A DNA stretch of 64,000 bases from Arthrobacter sp. Soil762 (GTDB lineage: Bacteria; Actinomycetota; Actinomycetes; Actinomycetales; Micrococcaceae). This document shows, piece after piece, positions 7,526 to 62,405 of the stretch. Every line of letters starts with the position of its first letter. Within the stretch, counting starts at the first letter, position 1. Position numbers and translations under genes: made by a program. The notes under the pieces were generated by a model. The model did no database searches. It had not been told where the DNA came from and saw nothing but the letters and a program-made list of their open reading frames with translations. Where the stretch lies: assembly GCF_001428335.1 (NCBI RefSeq), contig NZ_LMSG01000001.1, positions 568,822 to 632,821 on the forward strand, given 5' to 3'.

Positions 7526-7542
7526 GGTGTTCTCCTGCGGTT

Positions 7543-7570
7543 CTGTGGCCCGCCCTCAGGCGGGCCACAG
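7543..7570 (-). terminator. Intercistronic hairpin after binding-protein gene
   Basis: Perfect 12-bp stem CTGTGGCCCGCC / GGCGGGCCACAG with a CTCA loop, between the binding-protein stop (7588) and the permease start (7525). There is no U-run. It probably stabilises the upstream mRNA or partially terminates, giving more binding protein than permease. Confidence 0.7.
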
Positions 7571-7587
7571 ATCCGGTTGTGGGGTGG

Positions 7588-44736: not shown

Positions 44737-44906
44737 TGGTATCTCCTACTTAGATGGTTTTGGTCTTGTGAGGATCTGGGGTCCGGCGGCCGGATGCACC
44801 GGAAATCGCCGTCGTGAGGGCACGACGAATCGCGTCTCGGAGGAGGTGCGCCTTGGGAGGCATGGCCCCTCGGTAGAGGAATGACGTGGTAACTGCTAGC
44901 GGCGGC

Positions 44907-45497
44907 TCAGTGCACGGCCTCGCGCACGGCGAAGTCCGACAGGAAGTGCTCGAGCTGTTGACGCGGCGTAAGTAAGCCATCAATTCGGATATGAGCGACG
45001 CCGGGGGCCTGCGTAACCTCTGGAGAGAGGAAACGCTCCGGGTTCTTGACCTTGTCGAGGTCGCGTGCCGCTCCGCGTAGCCGCATTCGCCTCACGACCT
45101 CGCCCGGCGGGGTGTCCATCCAGGCCAGGTGCACCCGCGGTTCAGGGATCGCGAGGCGCTCAACGAGCCGTGCCCATGCAGCCGGGAAGGTGCGTTCGGA
45201 AGTGAACGGAGCAACAACAACCACGCTGTTGCCCAGAGCGAGATTCTCCCGGGTGGTGTCAAAGAGGCAGGTGTAGCGGATATCGTTCACGCTCGCACGC
45301 GCTGCGGGTTGTGCTGTGGGGACATCGACCAGGAATTCGCCGCCCATGTGCTCAAACAAGGGATTCGTGACGGTGTCCAGGTCAAGGATGGTCCAGTGGA
45401 GCTCGCGGGCCAGGTCATGGGCAAACGTCGTCTTGCCACTCGCCGGCACTCCGCAGACGATAATCGCCTCGGATGCGCGTTCGTCGGTCAGGTTCAT
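44907..45497 (-). CDS. P-loop AAA-type kinase (gluconokinase/shikimate-kinase-like fold)
   Basis: 196 residues. Walker A GVPASGKTTFAHDLA; a second acidic strand LDLDTVTNPLFEHM; LID-like basic segment RRMRLRGAARDLDK. These match small nucleoside-monophosphate-kinase-fold sugar or nucleotide kinases. The substrate is not predictable. It may be cotranscribed with the aldolase downstream and lies 55 bases from the SDR gene of the polyol operon upstream, so it could belong to that transcript. Confidence 0.8.
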   Translation of the reverse strand: MNLTDERASEAIIVCGVPASGKTTFAHDLARELHWTILDLDTVTNPLFEHMGGEFLVDVPTAQPAARASVNDIRYTCLFDTTRENLALGNSVVVVAPFTSERTFPAAWARLVERLAIPEPRVHLAWMDTPPGEVVRRMRLRGAARDLDKVKNPERFLSPEVTQAPGVAHIRIDGLLTPRQQLEHFLSDFAVREAVH

Positions 45498-45552
45498 TTG
45501 TCATCCATTTCAAATTGAGGTCGGGTCGCGGCGCCCCGCGGCGGAACGGAGG

Positions 45553-46329
45553 TCAGCGGCCGGTGTAGCCGCCGTCGACCGGGAGGGAAATGCCCGTGAT
45601 CATGGCGGCGGCGTCACTGAGCAGGAAGACAATGGGGCCGGCCACGTCGTCCACCGTGGCCCATCGTCCGAGTGGCATTTGCTCAAGGAAGGGGCCGCCG
45701 ACTTCCGGCCGTCCCCAGTAGAAGTTGGACATGTCGGTCATGACCACTGTCGGGTTGACGCTGTTGACGCGGATGTTGTGCTTGCCAAGTTCCAGCGCCG
45801 ATACGCGGGTGATGTTGTCCAGAGCGGCTTTGGAGGAGCCGTAGGAGATGTGGCCGTGAAGTGCCACCATGCTGGCCTGGCTGGAGACGTTGACGATTGC
45901 GCCGCCATTGCCCTGGCGGATCATGGAGGGCACCGCATGTTTGATGACCAGCAGGGCGCCGCGGGCGTTGATGCTGATGACCTTGTCGAAGACGTCGATG
46001 TCGGTATCCTGCGGTGTGGCGATTTCGCCGCCGAAGCCGCCGCAGTTCACGACGCCCCACAGGTCCAGGCCCTCGATGGCGTCTCTGATGCTTTCCTCGG
46101 AGGTCAGGTCGAATGCCAGGGGCTGGGCGCCGGTTTCATCGCAGAGCGGCGCTAACGACTCGAGCGTGCGGGCGCTGGCGATGACCTTCGCACCCGCGGC
46201 GGTGAGTTGCCGGACGGTGGCGGCCCCGATGCCACCGCTGGCGCCGGTGACGAGGACGGAACGGCCGTTGAAGTCGGTTGTTTCAGATCGGGCTTCGGCT
46301 GCCATGCTGGCTGTGGGTGAGTCGGTCAT
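45553..46329 (-). CDS. SDR, L-xylulose reductase/polyol dehydrogenase-like
   Basis: 258 residues. Cofactor loop TGASGGIG; catalytic VSSQASMVALHGHISYGSSKAAL; and RVNSVNPTVVMTDMSNFYW, a segment characteristic of dicarbonyl/L-xylulose reductases and arabinitol dehydrogenases. DGGYTGR ends the protein. ATG overlaps the mannitol-type dehydrogenase stop (ATGA), so both are translated together. It likely interconverts a pentitol or hexitol with its ketose. Confidence 0.87.
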   Translation of the reverse strand: MTDSPTASMAAEARSETTDFNGRSVLVTGASGGIGAATVRQLTAAGAKVIASARTLESLAPLCDETGAQPLAFDLTSEESIRDAIEGLDLWGVVNCGGFGGEIATPQDTDIDVFDKVISINARGALLVIKHAVPSMIRQGNGGAIVNVSSQASMVALHGHISYGSSKAALDNITRVSALELGKHNIRVNSVNPTVVMTDMSNFYWGRPEVGGPFLEQMPLGRWATVDDVAGPIVFLLSDAAAMITGISLPVDGGYTGR

Positions 46330-47825
46330 GAAGTACTCCCTATAGGCATCAAGAGTTCGGTCAGGCCCTGAACGGCGGTCCGCGCCCCGGAGCGTTCCAG
46401 GGCTTCGCGGGCCTGCCGGTACGCGGCGGCGAAACGGGTGTCCTGGCCCAGGCCGCCGAATATTTCGGTCAGGTTGAGGAAGGCGCCCGGCTCGCTCTGG
46501 TCCGCACGGGCGGCCGCGCGGAGTTCGCTGAGGCGCCGGTCGGTGACGGCTACGGGTTCGCCACGGTCGTCTGTACTTCCCAGGAACCGGGCCCAGGCTG
46601 CGATCGCGAGCACGGCCCGGTCTATGGGGCCTCCGAGTTCGAGCTGTTCACGCACCACCGGAAGCACGAATTTGGGGATCCGTTCTGATCCGTCGACCAT
46701 TTGGCGGGCGAGGGTGTCACGGATTGCGGGGTTGGCGAAGCGGTGGATGAGTTCGTCCCGGTACGCGTGCAGATCGATGCCGGGCACGGGTCGCAGGGTG
46801 GGCATCGCCTCGCGTTCCATGAAGCCGCTGATGAACTCGGCGAACAGCGGATCGGCGCAGACCTCATGGACGTACTTGTGTCCGGCGAGATATCCGAGAT
46901 AGCTCATGACCTGGTGGCTCGCGTTGAGGAGCCGAAGTTTCATGAGTTCGTAAGGCTCGACGTCGTCCACGATCTGCACACCGGCGTCTTCCAAAGGCGG
47001 ACGCCCGGCTGTGAACTTGTCCTCGAGAACCCATTGTTCAAACGGCTCGGCAACCACCGGCCATGCATCTGAGAATCCGTAGGCTTCGGCCACCGCAGCC
47101 CGGTCATGGTCGGTGGTGACTGGGGTGATGCGGTCGACCATGGAGTTGGGAAAGGCCACGGTCTCTGCGATCCAGCCGGCGAGTTCGGGATCCATGAGTC
47201 GGGCGAAGGACACGAGCGCTTTGCGGGCGACGTTGCCATTCCCCTGAATGTTGTCGCAGGACATGACGGTGAACGGGGCAGTGCCCTGATCACGGCGCCG
47301 GGCCAGGGCAGCGGTGATCAGACCGAACGCGGAGCCTGGAGCGGTGTTCGGTATCAGGTCGCGGAGAATGTCCGGTGTACGGGGATCGGATTCTCCTGTG
47401 CTGTCGCTGATGTTGTAGCCGCCCTCGGTAATGGACAGGGAGACTATGCGGGTAGCGGGATCTGCGAGCTTGCGGATGACCGCGGCCGGGTCGTCAGGGG
47501 CATAAAGGTACTCGGTGATGGAACCGATGATTCTGGCCTCTTCGGTGCCTTCGGCGCCCTTCAACACGAGTGTGTACAGGCCGTCCTGGCTTTCGAGGAC
47601 ATCGCGCATGCGGGCATCCGAGGCGAGCACTCCGACGCCGCAGATTCCCCAGTCCTGGGAGCCGCCCAGGTTCAGGAGGCGGTCGATGAACATGGCCTGG
47701 TGCGATCGGTGGAATCCGCCGACGCCGAAGTGGACAATCCCGGTCCGGACCGCGCGGCGCTGATACAAGGGGATGGGTAGCCGGCCTGCCGCTTCTGGAA
47801 GGGCCGCTTCATTCAGGGACGTCAT
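46326..47825 (-). CDS. Long-chain mannitol/polyol dehydrogenase (fructuronate reductase family)
   Basis: 499-residue NAD-dependent, metal-free polyol dehydrogenase. N-terminal Rossmann: IVHFGVGGFHRSHQAMFIDRL. The catalytic motif KLRLLNASHQVMSYLG (Lys, Asn, His) is diagnostic of mannitol dehydrogenase 2/arabinitol dehydrogenases. SCDNIQGNG and VDRITPVTT are family markers. ATG 47825 is used; a frame extension upstream overlaps a hairpin. It follows the CUT2 importer genes and precedes the SDR in one operon, suggesting use of D-mannitol, D-arabinitol or a similar alditol. Confidence 0.9.
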   Translation of the reverse strand: MTSLNEAALPEAAGRLPIPLYQRRAVRTGIVHFGVGGFHRSHQAMFIDRLLNLGGSQDWGICGVGVLASDARMRDVLESQDGLYTLVLKGAEGTEEARIIGSITEYLYAPDDPAAVIRKLADPATRIVSLSITEGGYNISDSTGESDPRTPDILRDLIPNTAPGSAFGLITAALARRRDQGTAPFTVMSCDNIQGNGNVARKALVSFARLMDPELAGWIAETVAFPNSMVDRITPVTTDHDRAAVAEAYGFSDAWPVVAEPFEQWVLEDKFTAGRPPLEDAGVQIVDDVEPYELMKLRLLNASHQVMSYLGYLAGHKYVHEVCADPLFAEFISGFMEREAMPTLRPVPGIDLHAYRDELIHRFANPAIRDTLARQMVDGSERIPKFVLPVVREQLELGGPIDRAVLAIAAWARFLGSTDDRGEPVAVTDRRLSELRAAARADQSEPGAFLNLTEIFGGLGQDTRFAAAYRQAREALERSGARTAVQGLTELLMPIGSTS

Positions 47826-47858
47826 GTCATTCTTCTCTTCGGTCGGGAGAGGCGGGAT

Positions 47859-47898
47859 GGTGCCGTTGCCAGCTTGGGAGTCTGCGGGCAACGGCACC
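47859..47898 (-). terminator. Intercistronic hairpin after binding-protein gene
   Basis: Perfect 12-bp stem GGTGCCGTTGCC / GGCAACGGCACC with a 16-base loop, between the binding-protein stop (47912) and the dehydrogenase start (47825). Confidence 0.72.
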
Positions 47899-47911
47899 GG
47901 AACGCTCGCTG

Positions 47912-48892
47912 TTAGCAGGAGGACTTGTAGACGTACTCGGCGCCGTCACCGCTGATGTTGTCCGTGGTGATCTGCTTGAACCCGGTCTGGATTTCCTTCT
48001 CTGTGGGCTCGCCCTTGATGGCCTTGAGTGCCTGGTCCACACCCTGGGTCCCGATTGACGCCGGTTCCTGTGCGATCAGGGCTTGGACGATGCCCTCCTT
48101 GAGCTGCTTGACCTGTGCCGGGCCGGCATCGAAGCCGACGATTTTCACCTGGTTCTGTTTGCCGGCCTGGCGGATGCCCGTAGCTGTTCCTTCTGCCGCG
48201 AAGGTGTTGGCCGCGAAGACGCCGACAATGTCCGGGTCCTTGGTCAATGCAGCAGAAACGAGTCTGGCGGCTTCAGCCGGATCGTTGTGGCTGTACTGCA
48301 CTCCCAGGTACTGGAAGGCTGAGTCAGCTTTGGCGCCCTCTTCGAAGCCAGCAACGCGGGCATCGGCTGTTGAGACACCGGGGTCGGTGGAAATTACGAG
48401 GACTTTGCCTCCGTTGGGGCTGAGGTTCTTGATTGCCTTGAAGGCTTCAAGGCCGCCGCCTTTGTTGTCCGAGGCGATCGCAGACGCGGCGAACGACGGG
48501 TCCTGCACCGTGGTGTCAACCAGGATGACCTTGATGCCTGCCGCCGCGGCGGCCTTCAAGGGCGCCTGCATTGCAGCCACGTCCGTTGGTGCGATCAGGA
48601 TGGCATCCGGCTGGGCTGCCACAACAGAATCAACGATGGGCTTTTGAAGCGTCGGGTCGAACTTGGCCGGCCCTTGCGTGTTTATTGTTGCGCCGGCTGC
48701 CTTGGCGGCGGCGTCGATGCCACATTGCATGCTGACGTAGAACTCGTCACCGGCGACACCCTGGATGAAGGTGAGCTTGGGCTGGTCTCCGGCCGAACTC
48801 CCGGCCGAGGCAGTTCCGCCGGCGCAGGCCGTGAGGGAAGTTGCGGCGAGGAGGCCTGCCGCGAGCAGGGTGGCTTTAGGGGTCAACTTCAT
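47912..48892 (-). CDS. CUT2 sugar ABC transporter binding lipoprotein (ribose/fructose type)
   Basis: 326 residues. Signal MKLTPKATLLAAGLLAATSL with lipobox LTACAG. The periplasmic-binding type 1 fold shows KLTFIQGVAGDEFYVSMQCG, DAILIAPTDVAAMQAPLKAA, VDTTVQDPSFAASAIASDN and IVGVFAANTFAAEGTATGIRQ. AGGAG is 6 bases before the ATG. A longer in-frame extension (to 49195) only shadows the permease. It is the third gene of ATPase-permease-binding protein order; the polyol dehydrogenase follows a hairpin. Confidence 0.9.
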   Translation of the reverse strand: MKLTPKATLLAAGLLAATSLTACAGGTASAGSSAGDQPKLTFIQGVAGDEFYVSMQCGIDAAAKAAGATINTQGPAKFDPTLQKPIVDSVVAAQPDAILIAPTDVAAMQAPLKAAAAAGIKVILVDTTVQDPSFAASAIASDNKGGGLEAFKAIKNLSPNGGKVLVISTDPGVSTADARVAGFEEGAKADSAFQYLGVQYSHNDPAEAARLVSAALTKDPDIVGVFAANTFAAEGTATGIRQAGKQNQVKIVGFDAGPAQVKQLKEGIVQALIAQEPASIGTQGVDQALKAIKGEPTEKEIQTGFKQITTDNISGDGAEYVYKSSC

Positions 48893-48950
48893 TGTGTGCT
48901 CCTGGTTTGCTTGGACGGGTTGATGCGGGAGGTTGATGCGGGGAGGAAGA

Positions 48951-50036
48951 TCAGTTGGAGCGTCGGCCGAACAGCTTCTTTTTGCCCTCAGCCTTGGCGG
49001 ACTGCCCTCGGGCTGCCGCCGCCCGGCGGCGCTGATCGACATAGACGGCCAGGACCAGAACGGCACCGACCGCCACCTGCTGCCAGAACGGCTGAATGCC
49101 GACGATGACGAAGCCGTTTTGGAGTACCGCGGGGATGAAGAGGCCAATGACGGTTCCGAAGATGGTGCCGACACCGCCGAAGAGTGACGTTCCACCGATC
49201 ACGACGGCGGCGATTACGTTAAGGTTTGTCGCTGACTGACCGGCGATGGCGGTCGTGCCGTACTGGGACAGCGACAGGATGCCTGCCACGCCGGCGAGGC
49301 CACCGGAGAGTGCGTAGATGGAAATCAGTTGGCGGTCCACTTTCACGCCAACGCGGCGGGCGGATTCCTCGTTGGAGCCAACGGCGAAGGTGTAGAGGCC
49401 GAACCTGGTCCGGTGAAGTACGGTCCCGAAGATCAGGATCAGGACCATCGCGATCAGGGAAATTGTCGGCCAGGTGGTTCCCGGAACGTTGCCGTATCCG
49501 ATGGTGTCCTGGAGAACAGCAGGGACCTCGCGGATGTCCACGCCGCCTGTGATGACCTGCGCCAGCCCCAAGGCGCCGCCAAGTGTTCCCAGGGTGACAA
49601 TCAGCGGCGGCACCTTGGCCTTCGCGATGAGAACACCGTTGAGAAGACCCCACCCGAGCCCGCAGCCGACGGCCACGAAGATACCGACAATGGCAGTTCC
49701 CCATCCGGAGCCGCCCATGGCTTGCATGACTTTTGCCGCCACGACTCCGGAGAAGACAAGGTTGGATCCGACGGACAAGTCGATGCCCGAGGTGACAATG
49801 ACGAAGGTCATGCCGATACCCAGGACACCCAGGATGGAGACATTCTGAATGATCTGGCGGACGTTGCCCCAGGTCGGAAACACGTCCGGTGCCAGGGCTG
49901 TGAAGGCCAGGAAGATGACCATCAGAACAAGCAGGATTTGGAACGATTGAACCTGGAGAACCTGCCGGAGGGTGTGTGCGTGAGAGATTTCGGGTGCGGT
50001 CCCGGCTGCGCGGGGTACGGCTTCGGTTGCGGTCAT
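48951..50036 (-). CDS. CUT2 sugar ABC transporter permease (RbsC/FrcC type)
   Basis: 361 residues, about 8-10 membrane helices. The family marker GMTFVIVTSGIDLSVGSNLVFSGV is present, followed by GLLNGVLIAKAKVPPLIVTLGT and GVKVDRQLISIYALSGGLAGVAGIL, and VIGGTSLFGGVGTIFGTVIG near the C-terminus. The basic C-terminal tail (RRRAAAARGQSAKAEGKKK) is cytoplasmic. Start overlaps the ATPase stop by ATGA. Confidence 0.9.
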   Translation of the reverse strand: MTATEAVPRAAGTAPEISHAHTLRQVLQVQSFQILLVLMVIFLAFTALAPDVFPTWGNVRQIIQNVSILGVLGIGMTFVIVTSGIDLSVGSNLVFSGVVAAKVMQAMGGSGWGTAIVGIFVAVGCGLGWGLLNGVLIAKAKVPPLIVTLGTLGGALGLAQVITGGVDIREVPAVLQDTIGYGNVPGTTWPTISLIAMVLILIFGTVLHRTRFGLYTFAVGSNEESARRVGVKVDRQLISIYALSGGLAGVAGILSLSQYGTTAIAGQSATNLNVIAAVVIGGTSLFGGVGTIFGTVIGLFIPAVLQNGFVIVGIQPFWQQVAVGAVLVLAVYVDQRRRAAAARGQSAKAEGKKKLFGRRSN

Positions 50037-50797
50037 GAGTGTGCTCCATCAAGTGCGCCGGTCATTGCGCCGACTAGTTCTTCCACCGTCGTTTTCTTCG
50101 CCTCGTAGGTGGCCACCCGGCGTCCGAGCCGGAGTACCTGGACCCGGTCCGCTACATCGATGACGTGCGGCATCGAGTGGCTGATGAACACGACGCCCAC
50201 TCCTTTGTCACGGACCCTCCGGATCGTCTCGAGCACGTTTTTTGTCTGCACAACTCCCAGTGCGGCTGTCGGTTCGTCCAGGAAGATGACACCCTTGGCC
50301 CAGGCAACAGCCCGTGCGATGGCGATTGCCTGCTTCTGGCCTCCCGACATGCTGCCGACTGGGTCGGACAGGCTTCGAACCGTAGCTCCAAGTTCATCGA
50401 AGGCTTCCCGTGATTTGGCACGCATCGTCCTGTTGTCCATGAATCCGAGCCGTCCTTGAAAGCCGGGCTTGGGGATTTCTCGGCCGAGGAACATGTTTTG
50501 GGCCGCGTTCAGGTGTGGTGCCAGGGCAAGGTCCTGATAGACGGTTTCGATGCCGAGGCTGCTGGCATGGCTCGGGGAATTTAGTTCAACCTCGCCGCCG
50601 GCAAACAGGATCTTGCCGGAGTCCAAAGCAAGGTTCCCCGACAGGGCCTTTACGAGGGTCGATTTTCCGGCGCCGTTGTCACCTATGAGTGCAACCACTT
50701 CGCCTGCGTTGACGTCAAAGTCGACGCAATCGAGGGCACGCACGTTGCCAAAGCTGCGGGTAAGGCCGCGGGCTTCCAAAACGGGGATTGTTGTCAT
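50033..50797 (-). CDS. CUT2 sugar ABC transporter ATPase, single nucleotide-binding domain
   Basis: 254 residues. Walker A LIGDNGAGKST, signature MSGGQKQAIAIARAV, Walker B VIFLDEPTAALG, switch His in FISHSMPHVIDVADRV. It has one ABC domain, half the length of RbsA, as in FrcA-type importers; it must dimerise. First gene of the importer operon; the kinase gene upstream is 98 bases away on the same strand. Confidence 0.92.
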   Translation of the reverse strand: MTTIPVLEARGLTRSFGNVRALDCVDFDVNAGEVVALIGDNGAGKSTLVKALSGNLALDSGKILFAGGEVELNSPSHASSLGIETVYQDLALAPHLNAAQNMFLGREIPKPGFQGRLGFMDNRTMRAKSREAFDELGATVRSLSDPVGSMSGGQKQAIAIARAVAWAKGVIFLDEPTAALGVVQTKNVLETIRRVRDKGVGVVFISHSMPHVIDVADRVQVLRLGRRVATYEAKKTTVEELVGAMTGALDGAHS

Positions 50798-50895
50798 GGG
50801 GTAACACCTGTCAGCTGGTACGGGACGAATGCGGCGACCCCGGCCATGCAGCCGGAGACACTTCGTTGTGCTGTCACTTCTGTCTTCCTCTTCAT

Positions 50896-51600
50896 TCAGG
50901 CCTTCGTGAAGGTCTCACGGCTGTCGGAATAGCTCAGGTCAATGATCAAATCGGCGCGTCTTCGGGTAGCAGCAACCACCGCAGCATTCCTCTGGTCGCT
51001 GCCTAGGACCCATGCCTCTGCTTCCGCGGGCGGCTTTCCGAAGGCTTCGTGGCGCCGGAGCAGCCGCAGCTGCCGCTCGTCGTCGCTTAGGTCCAGGAAC
51101 CAGACCTCGTCGATCTGCGCCCGGCTCTCCCGCCAGCCCTCGGCGTCCAGGAGAAGATAATTCCCTTCGGTAATGACCAGCGGCACCTCGCGGGCCACCG
51201 GGATCGCGCAGCCGATCGATTCCTCGAGGCCGCGATCGAACATCGGGGCGTAAACAACCGGCTCGCCGTTCGACTTGAGCCGGTGTAGCAGGTGGGCGTA
51301 TCCCCACGGGTCAAACGTGTCCGGAGCGCCCTTGCGGTCCGTCGAGCCACGCGCAGCAAGAACTCCGTTCGCCAGATGGAAAGCATCCATTCCGACCCGG
51401 GCAGCCTGGCCATCCAAGGCATCGGCGATAGCCTGCGCCACGGTGGACTTTCCAGCACCAGGCGCTCCCGCAATGCCCAGGATGCGCCGGCTTCCACTGA
51501 CAGCGAGAGTGCGGGCCCGCTCTACCAGCTCATCCAAGGTGCACGTCAGATGCTCGGCCTCTCGCTGGGAAACCGGGGTCCGAACTTCAGCGGTGTTCAT
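50896..51600 (-). CDS. Uridine-kinase-like P-loop kinase (FrcK type)
   Basis: 234 residues. Walker A IAGAPGAGKSTVAQAIADAL, substrate segment VGMDAFHLANGVLAARGSTDRKGAPDTFD, and the Walker-B-like strand LVITEGNYLLLDAEGW. This is the nucleoside/nucleotide kinase family that includes the FrcK gene of fructose importer operons. ATG 51600 follows GGAG at 6 bases; a GTG one codon earlier is possible. It is the first gene of the divergent polyol unit facing the LacI regulator. The sugar or nucleoside substrate is not known. Confidence 0.85.
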   Translation of the reverse strand: MNTAEVRTPVSQREAEHLTCTLDELVERARTLAVSGSRRILGIAGAPGAGKSTVAQAIADALDGQAARVGMDAFHLANGVLAARGSTDRKGAPDTFDPWGYAHLLHRLKSNGEPVVYAPMFDRGLEESIGCAIPVAREVPLVITEGNYLLLDAEGWRESRAQIDEVWFLDLSDDERQLRLLRRHEAFGKPPAEAEAWVLGSDQRNAAVVAATRRRADLIIDLSYSDSRETFTKA

Positions 51601-51758
51601 CACTGTCTCCTCCGTTGGTCATGCCACGGTGAAGAAGCTCTGCTGCTACACCCTTGAAGCGCTGCCTTGAATCAAACCCGCAGGTCTGGATCGAGTGGCT
51701 CTAACCTTCGGCTTCGAGGAACTCGCTGTGACCTGCCTTACAGAAACTTAGATGCCCC

Positions 51759-53605: not shown

Positions 53606-54367
53606 CTACTTGTCGACCAGCGTGATGTCGAATGAGTACAGGTCTGGACGGTAGCAATGGCGGCCGATCTCGACAGCCTTCCCGAGGCTGTCATAGACCC
53701 GGCGGTTGACGGTAAGTACGGGAGCTCCAGGAGGCATTTCAAGGAGCCGTTCCTCGTCCGGCTCGGCAGTACGGGCGCCGATGTTCTGTTTGGCCACCCG
53801 CATGGTTGCGCCACGGGCTCGCATCAGCCGGTAGAGGCTGCCTTGCTCCAACTGTCCGTGCGACAAGGCGGCAAACCTTTCCGGCAGGTAGTTCTCGAGG
53901 ATGGCGAACGGGACGCCGTCTGCGAGACGTACCCTGCGCAGGTGCAAGACCCTGGCGCCAGGTCCGGTGCCGAGGGCTTCGGCAACTTGTGGAGGGGCTG
54001 TTATGAGCTCGTGCGTCAGAACGCTGGAACTCGGGCGCTTGCCAATCCTGGACAGGTCTTCAAAGAGGCTGGACAGTGCCACATCCCGGGTGAGCTGGCC
54101 GTGGACAACCTGGGTGCCGACTCCCCGGCTTTTCACCAGGAGTCCTTTGTCGACGAGCTCTTGGATCGCGTGGCGGATGGTTGGCCGTGAGAGGCCCAGC
54201 CGTCGCCCCAGAACCATCTCGTTCTCCAGGCGTGCACCGGCGGGCAGGTGGCCGGTGAGAATTGCTTGCTCAATGCAGGACGAGACCTGGAAGTAGAGGG
54301 GAACGGGACCTGCGCGGTCGACATCCACGAAAAGGTCCTCTGGCAAGACGATGTGATCCTGCAGCAT
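53606..54367 (-). CDS. GntR-family regulator with UTRA domain
   Basis: 253 residues. The winged helix has VPLYFQVSSCIEQAILTGHLPAGARLENEMVLGRRLGLSRPTIRHAIQELVDKGLLV. The UTRA ligand domain has ARVLHLRRVRLADGVPFAILENYLPERFAAL and VYDSLGKAVEIGRHCYRPDLYSFDITL. UTRA proteins sense sugars, sugar phosphates or amino sugars. GGAGG is 6 bases from ATG 54367. It is on the same strand as the importer genes, downstream of the ATPase after 180 bases, so it may be independently transcribed. Its target is unproven. Confidence 0.88.
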   Translation of the reverse strand: MLQDHIVLPEDLFVDVDRAGPVPLYFQVSSCIEQAILTGHLPAGARLENEMVLGRRLGLSRPTIRHAIQELVDKGLLVKSRGVGTQVVHGQLTRDVALSSLFEDLSRIGKRPSSSVLTHELITAPPQVAEALGTGPGARVLHLRRVRLADGVPFAILENYLPERFAALSHGQLEQGSLYRLMRARGATMRVAKQNIGARTAEPDEERLLEMPPGAPVLTVNRRVYDSLGKAVEIGRHCYRPDLYSFDITLVDK

Positions 54368-54547
54368 TGTGGTCCTCCGGAATGACGTTGCGAACGGGTA
54401 GGGGCAGGAAGCCAGCGGACGTCCGTTGACGATGAGAAACCGTGACGTCTGCCCGACTCGACGGCCCTGCCGCCCCATGGGCAAGGCCGTCGCCGGGGAA
54501 CCTCTTCCGAGGCGTGCGCCGGGTCCCGTCATCACCGGCTTGTCGGG

Positions 54548-55333
54548 TCAGGCCGCGGTGGCGTTCTCACGGTATCGGCGGATGCCGAGTTCACCTTCGA
54601 CGACGGCGGCTGTCAGTTCTTCGACGCTCGTGTCCTCGCGGCGAACGTCGAGGATCTTGCGCCCGTGGTTCATGACGATGTGCCGATCGCAGACTTCGAA
54701 GGCGTGGTGGAGGTTGTGGGTGACCAGCACGGAGCTGATTCCGTCGGCCTTCAGTGCCCGCAGGTAGTCCAGCAACGCTTCTGTGGCGCGAACCGCAAGC
54801 GCGGAGGTGGGCTCGTCAAGGATCAGCAGACTCCGTTTGAAGTGGACGGCCCGGGCAATGGCCACCGCCTGCGCCTGACCTCCGGACAGCGACGAGACAA
54901 GCTGCTTGGAGCTCTTGATGCCTTCAATGGTCACCACGGAGTCCAGGATTTCGGAGGTGATGGCATCCATCTCCTTGATCTTCATCAGACCCAGGCGGTT
55001 CGTGATCTCGCGGCCCATGAAGATGTTGCGGCTAATGGACATCTGCGGGACCAGCGCCGAGTCCTGGAAGATCGTTTCGATGCCCAGGCTCTCGGTCAGG
55101 GCCCTGTTCACGTGCGGGTGCTTGGTTCCGTCCCAGGAGAAGTCGCCTGCGGTGGCCGCGACCACGCCTGACATGATCTTGACCAGGGTCGACTTGCCAG
55201 CACCGTTGTCGCCGAGGAGGCCCACAACCTCGCCTTTTCCGATATCGAAAGACACGTCGTCCAGGACGGTGTTGACGCCGTACTTCTTGGTGATGCCCTC
55301 AATCCGGAGCAGGTAGTCCTCGTTGATGGTCAT
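54548..55333 (-). CDS. CUT2 sugar ABC transporter ATPase, single domain
   Basis: 261 residues. Walker A LLGDNGAGKST, signature LSGGQAQAVAIARAV, Walker B LLILDEPTSALA, switch His in LVTHNLHHAFEVCD. Half-length relative to RbsA, as in the importer at 50033. ATG 55333 overlaps the permease stop (ATGA). Last gene of the binding protein-permease-ATPase operon whose promoter carries LacI-type sites like those of the P450 operon. Confidence 0.92.
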   Translation of the reverse strand: MTINEDYLLRIEGITKKYGVNTVLDDVSFDIGKGEVVGLLGDNGAGKSTLVKIMSGVVAATAGDFSWDGTKHPHVNRALTESLGIETIFQDSALVPQMSISRNIFMGREITNRLGLMKIKEMDAITSEILDSVVTIEGIKSSKQLVSSLSGGQAQAVAIARAVHFKRSLLILDEPTSALAVRATEALLDYLRALKADGISSVLVTHNLHHAFEVCDRHIVMNHGRKILDVRREDTSVEELTAAVVEGELGIRRYRENATAA

Positions 55334-56418
55334 GATGCTTTGCCTTCCATGAGCTTGTTGAAGATGGCGGCGACCACGATGATCAGGCCGACGAAGAGCT
55401 GGATGTAGAAGCCGGGCGCCTTGCCCAGGATCAGGCCGTTTTCGATGATGCGGATCAGGGCAGCGCCGACGATCATGCCGATGATAGTGCCCCGGCCTCC
55501 GAGGAGGGAGGTTCCGCCGACCACGGCAGCCGCTATCGCCATCAGGGTGTAATCCTCCGTGGAACCGGGCTGCATGGACGAGGTCCGGACCGAGATCAGG
55601 ATGCTGGCCAAGCCCACCATGGCTCCGAACAGGGCGTAGGAGAGGAGCTTGACCTTGAAAGGGTTGATGGAGATGGCCCTCGCGGCCGACGCGTTGCCGC
55701 CGACGGCGAAGATGTGGTTGCCGAGCTTGTGGCGGTGCAGGAAGAACCACGCCACTACTCCCACCACGATCATCCAGACCAGCTGCGAGCGGAAGAAACC
55801 GAAATCGCCGGCGAAGAGGGTGACGAGTGCTTCGTCTTTTCCTTTGCGCAGCAGCGCCGGCGCGGTGCCGTTGATGAAGATGCTGGCGCCGGTCCAGAAG
55901 AATGCCATGCCAAGAGTCGCGATGAAGGACGGGATGCCGGTGATGACCACGATCAGTCCGTTGATCAGGGCAATACCGGTGGCCGCGGCGATTGCGGCCA
56001 GGACCCCCCAGCCCCAGCCGAACGAGTTGGAGACGTGAATGAACGTGATGGAAGAGAACCCGATGCTCGCGCCCAGGGAGAGGTCGAATTCTCCGGCGAT
56101 CATCAGGATGCCGACTCCGATGGCCAGGATGGCCAATACCGGAATGCTCTGGGAGATGACGCCCGAGAGGTTGTTGGCCGACAGGAATGGGAAGGCGGGG
56201 CTGGCGATGCTGGCGATGACGAAGCCGATGATGACGACCGCCAGGATCGCGCCGATTTCGAGGGCTCCGCGGCCACGGGTGTAGCGGATGTAGTCCTTGA
56301 ATTTCTCGGCTGTTGTGACGGGTTGGTTATCGGCAAGGCGGCGGACTTTGGTGATGGCCCCTGTTTCCAACGGCGCCGTGAGGACGTGTTGGCCGGTGCC
56401 TGTCTCTTGTGGTGACAT
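55330..56418 (-). CDS. CUT2 sugar ABC transporter permease (RbsC/FrcC type)
   Basis: 362 residues. Cytoplasmic N-terminus (about 60 residues), then membrane helices: EIGAILAVVIIGFVIAS, ILAIGVGILMIAGEFDLSLGASIGFSSI (hallmark), GIALINGLIVVITGIPSFIATLGMAF and GGTSLLGGRGTIIGMIVGAALIR. ATG 56418 (MSPQETGTG) follows AGG; the longer frame to 56520 passes through the preceding hairpin and is rejected. Confidence 0.9.
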   Translation of the reverse strand: MSPQETGTGQHVLTAPLETGAITKVRRLADNQPVTTAEKFKDYIRYTRGRGALEIGAILAVVIIGFVIASIASPAFPFLSANNLSGVISQSIPVLAILAIGVGILMIAGEFDLSLGASIGFSSITFIHVSNSFGWGWGVLAAIAAATGIALINGLIVVITGIPSFIATLGMAFFWTGASIFINGTAPALLRKGKDEALVTLFAGDFGFFRSQLVWMIVVGVVAWFFLHRHKLGNHIFAVGGNASAARAISINPFKVKLLSYALFGAMVGLASILISVRTSSMQPGSTEDYTLMAIAAAVVGGTSLLGGRGTIIGMIVGAALIRIIENGLILGKAPGFYIQLFVGLIIVVAAIFNKLMEGKAS

Positions 56419-56487
56419 GACCTGATCTTTCGATGGCAGCGGCGTCGATGCCGCGGAATGGGAGAGGTGGGCGCTGAGGCCCGGAGA

Positions 56488-56524
56488 GGGGATGGAGCGG
56501 GGGCGTGGCCGCCGCTCCATCCCC
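56488..56524 (-). terminator. Intercistronic hairpin after binding-protein gene
   Basis: Perfect 13-bp stem GGGGATGGAGCGG / CCGCTCCATCCCC with an 11-base loop, 12 bases beyond the repaired binding-protein stop (56536) and before the permease start (56418). Confidence 0.74.
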
Positions 56525-56535
56525 TTAGGGCGCAG

Positions 56536-57557
56536 TTACCAGCGGACGCCCTGGAGGTCCGGCGCTTCGAGGTTTTCCACGTTGGTCTTGTCGATGAGGG
56601 AGACGCCGCCGGAGTTGATGTTTGCCGGTGCCAGGCCGAAGTCGATGGCAAGGGCGCTCTGCATCAGCGACTGGAATCCCTGGACGAAGCCTGCTGGTCA
56701 GCCGTGGCGATGATGTCCCCGGCCTTGATGCCGTCGATAACCTGCGGGGAGGTGTCAAAGCCGACGATAGGAACCTTCACGCCGGCTGCCTCCATGGCAG
56801 CCAGGATGTTGCGGTGCGGGGTGCCTCCCAGGGGCGCCACTGCCTTGACGTCCTTGTTGGCGATGAGCCATGAGGTGAGGGAGTTCAGAGCTTCCTCATC
56901 GGAGGCGGAGGTCCGGAGGTACTCGCCCTTCGCACCCACCTTGTCGAACGCTTTCTGCACGCCGCCGCCGCGCTGGATGGCGTAGTTCTGCTCGGGTTCT
57001 TCCGCCGGGAAGAGGACCTTGTCGCCGGCGCCCAGCTTGGCCTCCGCGGCGAGACGCTCGCCAACGAGCGTGCCGACCTCGAAGAAGTCCTGACCGACGA
57101 AACCGCTGACGCAGTCGGCGGCACTCTCGGGTGCCGGCACGTTGTAGGCGACGACCTTGATGCCTGCCTTGGAGGCGTCACACGCCACCTTGACCCACTT
57201 CTCGCCTTCGTTGAACGGCATCACGATGACTGCGGGCTTGGACGCCGTGGCTGTTGCCACGAGGTCCACCATTTTGTCCGGATCGGCATCGGCGGTCTGG
57301 TGCGTCAGCTGCAGGCCACCGAGGGTGGAGGCATCCTCCGCCCCCTTGAGGATCTGGGCCCAGAATGCGTCGCCGGCCGGGTTGTAATACGTCAGGAAGT
57401 AAACGCTGCGGTTTTCGGCGCGGCTGCCAAACTTGTCGGCCAGGCCGGTGGTTGATGATGCATTGGACGTTGCGGTGCAGCCTGCCAGAGCCAGCGTAGC
57501 CACGCCTGCCATGGCAATTACGCCGAGTCCCCGCTTGAAGGTAGAAATAGGTTTCAC
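56536..57557 (-). pseudogene. CUT2 sugar-binding lipoprotein gene with a late frameshift
   Basis: Lipoprotein signal MKPISTFKRGLGVIAMAGV with lipobox LAGCTA. Body: VYFLTYYNPAGDAFWAQILKGAED, VIVMPFNEGEKWVKVACDASKAG, ADCVSGFVGQDFFEVGTLVGERLA, VPIVGFDTSPQVIDGIKAGDIIATADQQ. After this, the written frame ends in SSRDSSR and stop at 56664. Adding one base in the CC at 56690-56691 (GG on the coding strand) restores GFVQGFQSLMQSALAIDFGL, ending LEAPDLQGVRW with a TAA at 56536-56538. A 340-residue protein is restored. True mutation or base-calling indel; function otherwise intact-looking. Confidence 0.85.
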
Positions 57558-57649
57558 TTCGTCGTGTCCCTCTCATAGGTGCCGAAGCCTGCCCCCATCC
57601 AGAACTGATGCTCGTGGGGAGTGCCGATCTTCGACTTATTGTCAGGACA

Positions 57650-57711
57650 TTCTTACGCACAATAACTGGCACGTGCAAGACCCTTCGAGAAAAATCTGTC
57701 TCGTGCCAGTT
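57650..57711 (-). promoter_or_regulatory. Promoter and LacI-type operators of the P450-linked importer
   Basis: Reading toward the binding-protein gene: TTGCAC (57678-57673), 17-bp spacer, TAAGAA (57655-57650). ACTGGCACGTGCAAG (57665-57679) covers the -35. A second site with CGTGCCAGTT (57702-57711) is inverted relative to it. The GCACGTGC core matches the operator before the P450 gene. Confidence 0.68.
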
Positions 57712-57802
57712 TTGTGACGCGGGGCACATGGTATGGATTGCGGCTGCGGGCATACACCTCCCGCGAAAGACACTGCGCCCGGACGTCGACGTCCGCGCCC
57801 GC

Positions 57803-58825
57803 TCACCTGGGGTGCAGCTGCGCCTCTGACCGGGGCTGGCCCGTACTTCCCCTGATGACCAGCGTGGGAACGATCATGCGTTCCCGGGGCGCCGACTCCT
57901 CGTCTGACATCATCTGAACGGCGGCCTCGACGGCCGCCGTGCTCATTTCCTCGGGATCCTGGCGGACGCTCGTCAGGTCAACAAACGACAGCCTGGCGAT
58001 GCGGCTGTCATCGTAGCCCGTGACCGAAACATCCTCGGGCACCCGCAAGCCGGCACGCAGAAGCCTATTGATGAGGCCCATGGCAGCATGGTCATTGGAG
58101 CAGACTACCGCGGTGGGCATGACCGGCTCCGCGAGAAGCGACTCGGCGGCACTTGCACCGGATTCCTCGGTGAAGTCCCCGTCAATCTCCCGGACCCGAG
58201 AGGGCAGTCCGTGCCTGTCCATGGCTGTCACGTATCCCTGGTGGCGGGCAGCGAATTCAGGAAGTGACCGCGTCAGAACGTAGGCAATATCCCGGTGCCC
58301 GAGTTCCACCAAATGGTCCACCGCCGCCGCGATCCCCCGCTGCCCGTCTGACCGGACGGCACCGCAGACACCCTGCGGCAGAGGTCTGCCGATGCTGACC
58401 ACCGGCAGCCGCTTTGCCAGTTTCCGCAGCTCGTTTACAGGCGTTTCCGGCGAAATCAGGATGACGGACTCAGTGCGGAACCCGAGCAGTTCCGTGATGG
58501 CATCCCGCTCGTCCCGCGTCGCCGTCAGGGCACCGAGAATCAGGTTGTAGCCACGCTCGTGGGCCGCCGCATAGAGGGCTTCGACAATGTCGTCCGCGGA
58601 TGAGTGGGCGGGATTGAAGAGCACACCGATGTAGTTGCTGCTCCGCCGGCGAAGCGACCGCGCTGCTATGTCCGGGCTGTATCCGAGCTCGGAAGCCGCC
58701 TCAAAGATGCGCTCCCGTGTCGAGGAACTGACGCCGGCCTCATTGCGGAAGGCGAGCCCCACAAGCTGCCGTGAAACGCCGACGCGCGTGGCGACGTCCA
58801 TCATGGTCGGCCGTTTAGAGATCAC
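57803..58825 (-). CDS. LacI-family regulator between importer and P450 genes
   Basis: 340 residues. HTH and hinge: TMMDVATRVGVSRQLVGLAFRNEAGVSSSTRERIFEAASELGYSPDIAARSLR. Ligand domain: IGVLFNPAHSSADDIVEALYAAAHERGYNLILG, HLVELGHRDIAYVLTRS, AVVCSNDHAAMGLINRLL and VTGYDDSRIARLSFVDLTSVRQDP. It sits between the importer operon (same strand, downstream) and the P450 operon (divergent). Matching operator cores at both promoters make it the probable common regulator, responding to the transported carbohydrate. Confidence 0.9.
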   Translation of the reverse strand: MISKRPTMMDVATRVGVSRQLVGLAFRNEAGVSSSTRERIFEAASELGYSPDIAARSLRRRSSNYIGVLFNPAHSSADDIVEALYAAAHERGYNLILGALTATRDERDAITELLGFRTESVILISPETPVNELRKLAKRLPVVSIGRPLPQGVCGAVRSDGQRGIAAAVDHLVELGHRDIAYVLTRSLPEFAARHQGYVTAMDRHGLPSRVREIDGDFTEESGASAAESLLAEPVMPTAVVCSNDHAAMGLINRLLRAGLRVPEDVSVTGYDDSRIARLSFVDLTSVRQDPEEMSTAAVEAAVQMMSDEESAPRERMIVPTLVIRGSTGQPRSEAQLHPR

Positions 58826-58883
58826 TTGGACATCCTATACGCGGAGGGTTGATGGCTCTCCGCCGGGTTTGTCAGGACATCCC

Positions 58884-58911
58884 TTGACGAAAACCTAGCA
58901 CGTGCTAGTCT
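58884..58911 (+). promoter_or_regulatory. P450-operon promoter with perfect LacI operator
   Basis: TTGACG (58884-58889), 16-bp spacer, TAGTCT (58906-58911). The perfect palindrome CTAGCACGTGCTAG (58895-58908) lies between and over the -10, so a bound repressor would block transcription. About 90 bases upstream of the P450 ATG. Confidence 0.74.
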
Positions 58912-58999
58912 TTAGGAAATCCAGCCCAAATGCCCTTCCTCACACGGCTGAGGTCTCGTTCTCCCATCCACGCAAAACGCACGAAAGCAGGGCCTACCA

Positions 59000-60334
59000 A
59001 TGTCGCTAGCCACTGATCCGAACACCACCGACATCCAGCGATGCCCTTTCAGCGGCGCCGCTCTCGCCGGCGAGGAATCACGCACGCCGGACCCTGTCGC
59101 GGCGCCCGGGATTGGCCCGAATCCCGGCCTGGAGACAGATCCCGGCGTCTTCTACGATCCGCTCTCCTACGCCGCGTATGACCATCCCTATGAGCTGTAC
59201 AAAATCCTGCGGGACAAGGCGCCGGTCTACTACAACGAGCGCCGCGACTTGTACGTCGTCTCGCGTTACACCGATGTCCAGGCAGGCCTGCGAAACCACG
59301 GGCAGCTCTCCAGCGCCCTGGGCAATGACATGGACGGTACCCATGCGTCCTACGGGGCAGGCAACCTGATCATGGTCGACGCTCCCCGGCACACCTCTCT
59401 GCGATCGGCCGTCCGTCGCGTCTTTGTCGGACGCGAGATACTGTCCAAGGAAGACGGCATCAGGGAACTGGCCCGCCACCTGATCACGGAGCTCCGCGCG
59501 AACGGCGGCGGTGATTTTGCCACTGAGGTGGCGCTTCCGTTGGCTATCGGTGCGGCCACGAAAATGATCGGCATGGCCGTCGAGGACAGCGGAATGCTGC
59601 AGGAACATCTCCTGCGCTCCATGGTGCGGACGGTGGGCGAGTTCGGCGTGCCGGACGACGCCGCCTTCTCCAATCAGGAAGCCGAAGAGCACCTCGCGGA
59701 CGTGTTTGGGAAGCGGAGCGAAGAGGTCGAAGCCGGCGGCGCCGCCACAGGGTCGGATGCCATCACCCAAATCATCCTCGGCATGCACGCCGGCAAAGTG
59801 GAGCCGGGTGAACAGGTGGGCCTCGCCCATCTGATTCTGTCGGCAGCCATCGACGCCCCCGCCGCCCTCCTCACCAACCTCGTGGCCACCCTCGACAAGT
59901 TCCCGGCCTTCCAACAGTGCCTTGCGAAGGACCCGGCCACCATTCCGGCCTTTGTGGAGGAGACACTCCGCTTTGACACCCCCGGCCAGAACCTCTGCCG
60001 GCAGACCACCGCCGAGATCACCATCGCCGGCGTGACCATACCGGCGGACTCCCGGGTGATGTTCCTGCTGGGCTCCGCCAACCGGGACGAAAGGGTCTTC
60101 CAGAACCCGGACTTCTTTGATATCAGCCGCGAGCTGACGCCGGAGAACCGCATCATGACCTTCGGCGACGGTATCCACGCTTGCCTGGGCGCACCCCTGG
60201 CCCGGCTCGCCGGACGCGTCCTCGTGGAGACTCTCCTCGAAGGCCCTGAGATCCGCGTCGTCGGGCTGCCCGAGCGCTGGGCCAAGCAAATGGTCCGCGG
60301 CTTCGCAAAGCTTCCGGTGAAGTTCGTTGACTGA
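59000..60334 (+). CDS. Cytochrome P450, class I
   Basis: 444 residues, soluble bacterial type. Heme-binding motif FGDGIHACLGAPLARLAG with Cys at residue 395; ExxR in VEETLRFDTPGQNLCRQ (Glu 321, Arg 324). The I-helix reads LILSAAIDAPAALLTN: the acidic residue (Asp 285) is kept, but the position 35 residues before the ExxR Glu, normally Thr, is Ala 286. VDAPRHTSLRSAVRRVF is the C-helix. It is followed by an overlapping NHL-like gene and a reductase. Substrate is inferred to be a carbohydrate or its ether from the linked sugar importer. Confidence 0.9.
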   Translation: MSLATDPNTTDIQRCPFSGAALAGEESRTPDPVAAPGIGPNPGLETDPGVFYDPLSYAAYDHPYELYKILRDKAPVYYNERRDLYVVSRYTDVQAGLRNHGQLSSALGNDMDGTHASYGAGNLIMVDAPRHTSLRSAVRRVFVGREILSKEDGIRELARHLITELRANGGGDFATEVALPLAIGAATKMIGMAVEDSGMLQEHLLRSMVRTVGEFGVPDDAAFSNQEAEEHLADVFGKRSEEVEAGGAATGSDAITQIILGMHAGKVEPGEQVGLAHLILSAAIDAPAALLTNLVATLDKFPAFQQCLAKDPATIPAFVEETLRFDTPGQNLCRQTTAEITIAGVTIPADSRVMFLLGSANRDERVFQNPDFFDISRELTPENRIMTFGDGIHACLGAPLARLAGRVLVETLLEGPEIRVVGLPERWAKQMVRGFAKLPVKFVD

Positions 60335-61301
60335 GGTCAAAGGCTGGGAGGACCTCTCCGGACTCCTGCCACAGTCACGCGGCTGGATGCACTCCGGTGT
60401 CGCAGTCCTCAGCGACGGCAGAGTCCTCTGCGCCCACCCGGAAGGCCGCGACCTGTTGGTCATCGATCCTTCGGGTCGCTCCGAAACCATACCAACGTCC
60501 CTGACCGAAATGCACAGCATTTTCACCTGCCAACGCGACGGCGAGGAAGTCATCGCCGTGGCCGACCCCGGGCACCGCTTCGTCGAGGATCCCGCCGACA
60601 CATCGGCCTACGCCGATCACTTCTCGCCCGGGCGCGCAGTGATCCTGAACAGGGACGGAAGCGTCCTCCTGGAACTGAAATGCCCGCCACTGCTGGACTA
60701 TGCACTTGAGTCATGGCGCCCGACGTCGATCGCCGTCGACGACTCCCGATACACCGATAGCGGTGACATCTGGGTAGCCGACGGGTACGGCGCCAGCCTG
60801 GTGCACCGTTTCGACGCCTCGGGCCGCTATCTCGGAACTCGGGACGGCGCAGAAACGGGCACCGCCTTCGCCTGCCCGCACGGGATAATGCTGCGGACCG
60901 ACCATGGGCGCCTCGAAATCTACGTGGCGGACCGCACCAACTGCAGAATCGTCGTCATGGACCGGAGCGGAATACAGCCGCGGATCCTGGGCGAAGGAGT
61001 CCTGGACAGCCCGTCCTCGCTCGTGCTCGTGGAGAACCGGATCTACGTTACCGAACTCTTCGGCGGAGTCGCGAGGTTCGACGGCGATGCATTCACCCGC
61101 GTTCTGGAACGGGCCCGGCCCCGGTCGAACGAGGACGATGCCTGGCCCAACCGTCGCGTTCCCGGGGGCCTGAACGGACCGGTTGTGGACCCGGGCTTCT
61201 TCAACAGCCCCCACGGAATCGCCGCCGACGGCCACTGGCTCTACGTCACCGAGTGGTTCATCGGCGGGCGGCTCAGCCGTCTGTCACTCACGCAGTACTA
61301 A
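60327..61301 (+). CDS. SMP-30/NHL beta-propeller-like protein
   Basis: 324 residues, likely a six-bladed propeller. Repeated blade-like motifs: RPTSIAVDDSRYTDSGDIWVADGYG, CPHGIMLRTDHGRLEIYVADRTNCRIVVMD, DSPSSLVLVENRIYVTELFGG and NSPHGIAADGHWLYVTEWF. These carry the conserved Asp/Asn positions of SMP-30/gluconolactonase-type enzymes. TTG 60327 overlaps the P450 stop by 8 bases. No signal peptide. A lactonase or sugar-derivative hydrolase acting on the P450 product is plausible; a binding-only role is possible. Confidence 0.78.
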   Translation: MTEVKGWEDLSGLLPQSRGWMHSGVAVLSDGRVLCAHPEGRDLLVIDPSGRSETIPTSLTEMHSIFTCQRDGEEVIAVADPGHRFVEDPADTSAYADHFSPGRAVILNRDGSVLLELKCPPLLDYALESWRPTSIAVDDSRYTDSGDIWVADGYGASLVHRFDASGRYLGTRDGAETGTAFACPHGIMLRTDHGRLEIYVADRTNCRIVVMDRSGIQPRILGEGVLDSPSSLVLVENRIYVTELFGGVARFDGDAFTRVLERARPRSNEDDAWPNRRVPGGLNGPVVDPGFFNSPHGIAADGHWLYVTEWFIGGRLSRLSLTQY

Positions 61302-61356
61302 ACACACTTCCCCTCAGCGCATCCCACGCGACGACTTTCAGATTGAGAGCAGGACC

Positions 61357-62349
61357 ATGAGCACAACAGAGACCATCTCCGGGCCGATTTCGGACCTCAC
61401 CCTCGAAGAGGCCCATTTCTTTGCCCGCGTCGCGGCGAAAACACACGCGGCCGACGACGTCGTACTCCTCACCCTCCGGCACCAGGACGGCGAAGACCTT
61501 CCGCCGTGGCGTCCCGGCGCCCACATCGATCTGGTCCTTTCCAACGGCCTGACGCGGCAGTACTCCCTCTGCGGCGATCCGGCAGATCGGAGCAGCTACG
61601 TCGTTGGTGTCCTCAATGCGCCCAACAGCCGCGGCGGCTCGCGGTTCGTTCACGAGTCACTGGCCACCGGCGATTCGGTGACCGTCCGCGGTCCGCGGAA
61701 CCACTTCCGGCTGGTCGATGCCCCCAGCTACCTGTTCGTCGCCGGTGGCATCGGAATCACGCCCATTGCCGCGATGATCCGCGAAGTACAGCAGCAGGGG
61801 AAGCCGTGGACGCTTGTCTACGGAGGCCGGACACTTTCCTCCATGGCCTTCAGGGATGAGCTGACCGCCTACGGCACCCGAACCACCCTGTGGCCCCAGG
61901 ACCAGAAGGGGATCATCGATCTGCCCACGGCCCTGGGCTCCCCGGACTGCCACACAGCCGTCTACACCTGCGGTCCGGAACCGCTCCTGGCCGCCGTCGA
62001 GGCAATCTGTGCCGAGAAGTGGCCCTCCGGGTCCCTGCACCTGGAACGGTTCACGGCAAAGAAGGTGGACACCGCGCACGATGTGGCGTTCGAAATCGAA
62101 CTGGCAACGAGCGGCGTGCGGCTGACCGTCCCGGCGGATAAATCCGTCCTGAGTGTTCTCGAAGAAGCCGGCACACGCATCCTTTCCTCCTGCGGCGAAG
62201 GGACCTGCGGTACCTGCGAAACCACGGTCATCGAGGGAACCATCGACCACCGCGACTCCGTCCTCACCCTCGAAGAAAAAGCCGAGAACAGCTGCATGAT
62301 GGTCTGCGTCTCCCGCGCCACCTGCCCCGTGCTGGTGCTGGACCTCTAA
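61357..62349 (+). CDS. Phthalate-dioxygenase-type reductase with C-terminal [2Fe-2S] ferredoxin
   Basis: 330 residues. FMN/flavin domain with GAHIDLVLSNGLTRQYSLCGDP; NAD-binding domain with FVAGGIGITPIAAMIREVQ and AVYTCGPEPLLAAVEAI; C-terminal plant-type ferredoxin with CGEGTCGTCETTVIEG and a fourth Cys in CMMVCVSRA. This order (reductase then ferredoxin) is the PDR/VanB type and lets a single protein pass NADH electrons to an oxygenase. Being last in the P450 operon it is the obvious redox partner, making a two-component system like known O-demethylating P450 pairs. Confidence 0.93.
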   Translation: MSTTETISGPISDLTLEEAHFFARVAAKTHAADDVVLLTLRHQDGEDLPPWRPGAHIDLVLSNGLTRQYSLCGDPADRSSYVVGVLNAPNSRGGSRFVHESLATGDSVTVRGPRNHFRLVDAPSYLFVAGGIGITPIAAMIREVQQQGKPWTLVYGGRTLSSMAFRDELTAYGTRTTLWPQDQKGIIDLPTALGSPDCHTAVYTCGPEPLLAAVEAICAEKWPSGSLHLERFTAKKVDTAHDVAFEIELATSGVRLTVPADKSVLSVLEEAGTRILSSCGEGTCGTCETTVIEGTIDHRDSVLTLEEKAENSCMMVCVSRATCPVLVLDL

Positions 62350-62367: not shown

Positions 62368-62405
62368 AAGCGGACGACGGCGGGACCTCCCGCCGTCGTC
62401 CGTTT
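62368..62405. repeat. Copy 12 of the dispersed GC palindrome
   Basis: Arms AAGCGGACGACGGCGGG / CCCGCCGTCGTCCGTTT, ACCT centre, 19 bases after the reductase stop; followed by CCGTTTGGTGCC flank. Confidence 0.9.

Follow-up and report, generated by a model that had tools for sequence, protein, structure and literature searches.

A LacI-linked cytochrome P450 operon and CUT2 importer in Arthrobacter sp. Soil762, a candidate regulon for O-methylated inositols

The 64,000-nucleotide stretch of Arthrobacter sp. Soil762 DNA analysed here (the window) carries a LacI gene located between a CUT2 importer and an operon encoding a cytochrome P450, an NHL-propeller protein and a reductase, with matching operators 5′ of both. 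Sequence comparison with related loci gives us high confidence that these genes represent a real, conserved regulon with conserved linkage. We infer, with slightly better than even confidence, that this LacI-controlled regulon serves the catabolism of an O-methylated inositol or a closely related cyclitol ether (such as pinitol, ononitol or sequoyitol), which would be O-demethylated and passed to the iol pathway.

Gene organization and predicted operators

The genome of the window strain is 4.5 Mb in size, and the closest P450s from named organisms are those of Pseudarthrobacter (97% and 94% identity) and Arthrobacter Hiyo4 (94%). The importer, LacI, P450, NHL and reductase genes listed in an earlier note on this sequence were all found at their places by open reading frame and Pfam/NCBIfam analyses. 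On the minus strand, the importer comprises a single-domain CUT2-type ABC ATPase of 260 amino acids (54548–55330; ABC_tran, with xylG and YtfR as the best NCBIfam models, below cut-off), an RbsC-like permease (55330–56415; BPD_transp_2) and a sugar/cyclitol-binding protein encoded by a frameshifted gene (56541–57557; Peripla_BP_4), so that all the components of a CUT2 importer are present. The LacI-family repressor gene (57803–58825; LacI HTH and Peripla_BP_3) is on the same strand. On the plus strand, the P450 gene (59000–60334; Pfam p450 above cut-off) is followed by the gene for a six-bladed NHL propeller protein (60327–61301; Pfam NHL), which resembles peptidyl-alpha-hydroxyglycine lyase (PAL) and the start of which overlaps the P450 stop by 8 bases, and by the gene for a PDR-type reductase with an NAD-binding and a C-terminal 2Fe-2S ferredoxin domain (61357–62349; Pfam). 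The start of the latter is likely the ATG at 61357, not 61183. A 13-bp perfect stem with a 4-base loop, read off the sequence at 62372–62401 (plus strand), probably marks the end of the P450 operon, and therefore the alpha/beta hydrolase gene at 62609 does not clearly belong to this operon.

Further genes for regulation and transport lie nearby. A GntR/UTRA regulator is encoded 3′ of the importer (53606–54379, minus strand, with a possible upstream start extending it to 54535; Pfam GntR and UTRA). It has 94–96% identical orthologs in three close strains and 45–56% identical homologs in five distant P450 loci (L017, L018, L020, L032 and L035). A second CUT2 importer (47912–50797) is found together with mannitol-dehydrogenase-like, SDR, aldolase-like and two kinase-like genes at 43837–51603, near a further LacI gene at 51954. 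This region and its LacI gene probably constitute a separate polyol pathway.

The importer ATPase does not show the duplicated form of about 500 amino acids that is usual for CUT2, and short single-domain forms are known to exist. It has 78–82% identical orthologs in P450 loci L015, L017, L021, L022 and L024, and the permease has 61–68% identical orthologs in five distant P450 loci. For the binding protein, the best NCBIfam model, below cut-off, is the rhizopine (inosamine class) binding protein. Its gene has lost one G from a GGG run near 56685: the first frame covers 56664–57557, and the C-terminal part is read in a different frame, ending at about 56541. The missing G may be an assembly error. 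Alternatively, the frameshift could be real and the regulon could be decaying in this strain, with import lost or taken over by another carrier, a side question that is compatible with our main reading. The window gene is indeed one base shorter than its three intact orthologs (341 amino acids each), but a lone base missing from a short G run could be an error of assembly and all the other genes of the set are open, and we regard decay as rather unlikely. In the Hiyo4 locus (L014), several reading frames are broken across the P450 region, probably through sequencing errors.

The putative operator before the P450 operon, CTAGCACGTGCTAG (58895–58908), is a perfect palindrome located 5 bp downstream of a -35-like TTGACG. 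The one before the importer, CTGGCACGTGCAAG (57666–57679), has two mismatches to the palindrome and is identical in loci L012, L013 and L014 amid variable flanks. A second, degenerate operator-like site, CTGTCTCGTGCCAG (57696–57709), lies 30 bp from CTGGCACGTGCAAG and is kept in four of four strains. A scan of the intergenic regions for the sigma-70 consensus did not find a promoter. The 8-mer GCACGTGC alone was rejected as evidence, as it is not significant (four occurrences in the window versus 2.6 expected). The 14-mer is significant, and to this extent the matching sites that had been claimed before both promoters stand. With up to two mismatches, it occurs at six places in the whole 4.5-Mb genome, two of which are the P450 and importer promoters; none of the genes of the system were found at two other such 2-mismatch places that we inspected. 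Exact copies of CTAGCACGTGCTAG were present in 2 of 395 family genomes. One exact 14-bp copy, at position 1501 of locus L055 (genome G079), lies between a LacI gene (28% identical to the window LacI) and an MFS-like gene.

A profile scan of genome contigs with an alignment of four P450s yielded 25 loci, or 26 with the window. LacI orthologs (43–54% identity) are located near the P450 in L019, L022, L024–L027, L029, L030, L034 and L035. A search for the operator across these loci found 15 sites similar to CTAGCACGTGCTAG (at most one mismatch) in the 14 loci with a LacI ortholog, the window included, versus two in the other 12, while a Markov null model gave an expectation of 0. Both of the latter sites are in L023, the genome of which has a LacI ortholog (45%) on another contig. 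The sites sit before P450, FAD-reductase, importer, aldo-keto reductase (AKR) and LacI genes. No site at this threshold was found in the GntR-type loci (L015–L018, L020, L021, L031 and L032), nor within the stretch seen of the LacI locus L034. Because the operators recur in distant LacI-linked P450 loci, this phylogenetic footprinting is strong indirect evidence for the co-regulation of the importer and the P450 operon by LacI via the predicted operators, as the earlier note had proposed.

Neighbourhoods of related P450s and the link to inositol catabolism

Besides three close orthologs, the loci include 22 distant relatives with P450 identities of 53–64%, mostly accompanied by CUT2 or MFS transporters. 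Their neighbourhoods are catabolic and polyol-related, with CUT2 importers of two types, sugar porters, and LacI or GntR regulators; further neighbours are an AKR, a creatininase-family protein and isomerase-like TIM barrels. The gene set is thus kept well beyond the window strain, including the importer, LacI and the operator across genera. The best solved matches of the neighbouring AKR are general stress protein 69, an unnamed oxidoreductase and IolS. We considered IolI as an identity for the TIM-barrel gene and rejected it, as the gene matched no PDB entry at 1e-8 and no NCBIfam model strongly. The genome of the window strain encodes no orthologs of the relatives' AKR (best match 31%) or creatininase (no match).

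Nine of the 22 distant loci have curated inositol genes (iolC, iolB or iolD) next to the P450. Near the P450, iolC scored above cut-off in L015, L018, L020, L023, L027 and L036, iolD was found in L022, L023 and L029, and iolB in L023, L029 and L036; L024 is counted through its 94–95% identity to iol genes of the other loci. We estimate roughly that an iol cluster would be met in about 1% of 20-kb stretches picked at random from such a genome. In Cryobacterium (L022 and L024), a single stretch contains iolC-J-A-B-D-E-G, the P450, AKR, creatininase, FAD reductase, flavodoxin and LacI genes, and the same importer. No iol genes were found beside the window P450 in the 43–64 kb searched; those of the window genome lie on another contig (C19). 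In one of its own iol clusters are genes 81% and 91% identical to TIM-barrel genes that accompany the P450 in related loci; the iol regions of the window genome also contain the two nearest paralogs of the window LacI. Contig C19 carries two iolD genes above cut-off (18716 and 101567), in different iol-like clusters. Since the P450 clade is recurrently linked to iol genes, and since orthologs of the TIM-barrel genes and the nearest LacI paralogs lie in the strain's own iol regions, a cyclitol is quite likely the substrate. The recurrent iol linkage supports the methylated cyclitol or sugar guessed at before; this substrate and its demethylation are both inferred.

The P450, its electron supply and the NHL protein

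The heme-thiolate motif (FGxGxHxCxG) and the ExxR motif of the P450 are intact, with C395, H393 and E321/R324 conserved in 26 aligned sequences. In the I helix of P450s, an acid-alcohol pair, (D/E)-T, is usual, though not universal. In the window P450, this pair is replaced by D285-A286-P287, and Ala in place of the catalytic Thr is invariant in the 26 sequences. The same Thr to Ala change is found in CYP107A1 (P450eryF), in which a hydroxyl group of the substrate is the probable proton donor (PMC10741444). The invariant Ala thus suits a polyol substrate, and we suggest by analogy that such a substrate could donate the proton in this DAP-type P450.

Among the matches listed, the window P450 showed at most 29% identity to solved P450s, the nearest of which include CYP199A4 (sequence match E = 1e-40) and CYP125/CYP142, and the fold comparison returned generic bacterial P450s only. 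No characterised terpene, steroid or aromatic P450 family is therefore close to it among these matches. CYP236A, the family of the 6-O-methyl-galactose P450s, is absent among the matches listed. The P450 clade is rare, being detected in 4 of 395 family genomes at E = 1e-60, and a phylum sample of 396 genomes contained no other member at this threshold. One member of the clade is found with a PDR reductase in Paracoccus (Pseudomonadota; L028), which suggests transfer between phyla.

The PDR-type assignment of the reductase is based on its NAD_binding_1 (127–214) and Fer2 (250–322) domains in Pfam and on the PDR structure 2pia, which aligns over its full length (E = 1e-59) and is one of its best PDB matches together with the CYP116B reductase domains 6kbh and 6laa. 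Reductases of this type are found in the window group and in L026, L028, L029 and L033–L035, while other relatives have an FAD reductase and a flavodoxin. On the P450 tree, the distribution of partner types requires 2 changes, compared with 7.5 when the labels are shuffled; the window group branches next to a flavodoxin user (support 92/91, below the star mark). This distribution suggests that the redox partner was probably exchanged or lost at least once. In several flavodoxin-type loci, a small HtaA-domain protein is encoded between the P450 and the AKR (L018, position 11092; L020, 7812; L021, 11095; L027, 11137; L031, 11146; L032, 11101).

The NHL protein had been described as SMP-30/NHL-like and as a possible lactone hydrolase. 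We do not retain the assignment to SMP-30-like lactonases: Pfam gave NHL alone (E up to 0.001) and no support for SMP-30/gluconolactonase (SGL), and among enzymes it is the lyase PAL that matches best. The predicted model (pLDDT 82) is an NHL-type propeller. In the fold search, many propellers tied for best, among them PAL (3fvz; structurally aligned at about 20% identity) and the propeller lactonase 8djf. PAL is the sole enzyme among the better profile matches, and for a 38%-identical homolog of the NHL protein it is the best solved sequence match (E = 9e-11). In PAL, three His residues are metal ligands, and the tyrosine of a DGY motif lies in the NHL propeller. Tyr154 and His185 of the NHL protein align to the SDGY and PHSL motifs of PAL, and the assignment of His63 and His296 to PHGL and PHDI relies only on motif and blade position. 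All four residues are invariant, and the histidines are placed in the model at strand starts about two blades apart. Among the loci studied, the NHL gene is confined to the window group. A distant actinobacterium (L050 in G501, 3964–8394) carries adjacent genes for a LacI, a PAL-like NHL protein (38%) and a P450 (32%), with 31–38% identity overall; the pairing of NHL and P450 genes thus recurs. PAL cleaves a carbinol produced by a monooxygenase (PMC3241674), to which a hemiacetal made by the P450 would be analogous as a substrate, though such hemiacetals also collapse unaided. A PAL-like lyase role for the NHL protein is accordingly a tentative proposal, which we consider improbable on balance.

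Proposed pathway, alternatives and known systems

Without substrate, LacI would occupy its operators at both the P450 and the importer promoter; binding of the substrate or a product by LacI would then open both operons. The CUT2 importer would take up the cyclitol, and the PDR-type reductase would pass electrons from NADH to the P450, which would hydroxylate the O-methyl carbon to give a hemiacetal. This would yield free inositol and formaldehyde, possibly with the help of the PAL-like NHL protein, and the inositol would enter the iol pathway, for which the genes lie on another contig. We favour an O-methyl ether because its removal is the simplest need for a P450 ahead of iol and follows the precedent of 6-O-methyl-galactose. 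Several observations argue against this pathway. The core iol genes are outside the window, and no formaldehyde dehydrogenase or other formaldehyde-handling gene was recognised in the P450 neighbourhoods. The AKR and creatininase companions of the relatives have neither an ortholog here nor an assigned step in a simple demethylation, and the binding-protein gene is frameshifted in the assembly. In an extended form of the proposal, methyl-inositols would be O-dealkylated by two enzymes of one LacI regulon, the P450 acting with a proton donated by the polyol and the PAL-like NHL lyase then splitting the hemiacetal. Such a pair of enzymes would correspond, for carbohydrates, to PHM and PAL in peptide amidation; we consider this extended form unlikely.

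Also unlikely is an alternative in which the regulon and importer are the same and the P450 performs no O-demethylation, either hydroxylating a deoxy-inositol (quercitol) or oxidising the ring carbon of the ether to give methanol and an inosose. The iol linkage fixes the pathway, not the reaction, and the AKR and creatininase-family genes of the relatives suggest keto or ring-opened intermediates; however, the carbohydrate P450 precedent that we found is an O-demethylation, and we know of no precedent for a P450 acting on a cyclitol in another way. A methylated or alkylated sugar or glycoside would fit the CUT2, MFS sugar porter and LacI genes, which are typical of sugars, as well as the 6-O-methyl-galactose precedent, but the repeated linkage to iolC, iolB and iolD of inositol breakdown makes such a substrate distinctly improbable. 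An ordinary aromatic or terpenoid P450 beside a sugar importer by chance is very improbable: although CYP199A4 and CYP125/CYP142 are among its nearest solved structures in the matches listed and PDR reductases often partner aromatic oxygenases, its identity to those structures is low, the importer, LacI and operator are kept with it across genera, and the P450 loci showed no recognisable genes for aromatic ring cleavage.

Legumes and conifers are rich in methyl-inositols such as pinitol. In the open-access literature searched, we found no earlier report of a bacterial P450 or other enzyme that demethylates these compounds, an absence that is weak evidence. If O-demethylation of methyl-inositols is correct, the system would provide a missing entry step for their breakdown and extend the known P450 demethylation of sugars. 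It would also represent a regulon with a defined 14-bp operator and a P450 family with cyclitol substrates, tying P450s to polyol catabolism in Actinomycetota, and would make a case for asking whether a PAL-like lyase aids P450 dealkylation.

Among known systems, relatives of the window P450 resemble P450cin/cindoxin in being located with a flavodoxin and an FAD reductase. P450cin uses partners of these types; its substrate, however, is cineole, and it is only 23% identical to the window P450. In marine Flavobacteriia, a P450 demethylates 6-O-methyl-D-galactose (PMC10033563). In that system too, a carbohydrate-use locus encodes a P450 together with redox partners, and removal of a methyl ether feeds sugar catabolism. 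It differs in having a separate ferredoxin and ferredoxin reductase and in acting on a galactose of porphyran; as described there, it includes no inositol genes, window operator or NHL lyase. In Rhodococcus jostii, the P450 PbdA and a single reductase, PbdB, carry out O-demethylation of para-methoxybenzoate (PMC11530827). As in the window, a stand-alone P450 is served by one flavin plus iron-sulfur reductase. However, PbdA belongs to the CYP199A family, with aromatic substrates, and CYP199A4 is only a distant match of the window P450.

Two other systems are related to the proposal through their substrate or reaction type. In rhizopine catabolism, MocD is a non-P450 oxygenase and MocB is a binding protein. 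The mocDEF/mocBA genes (PMC10107442) form an inducible system of several transcription units for an inositol-derived compound that can be O-methylated, but its regulator is MocR and the moc system was not found in the window. Finally, in the PHM and PAL pair (PMC3241674), a monooxygenase forms a carbinol that an NHL-propeller lyase splits, and the window NHL protein keeps the His and Tyr motifs of PAL. There, the oxygenase is a copper enzyme, the substrate is a peptide and a C-N bond is cleaved, whereas the cleavage proposed here would be of a C-O bond.
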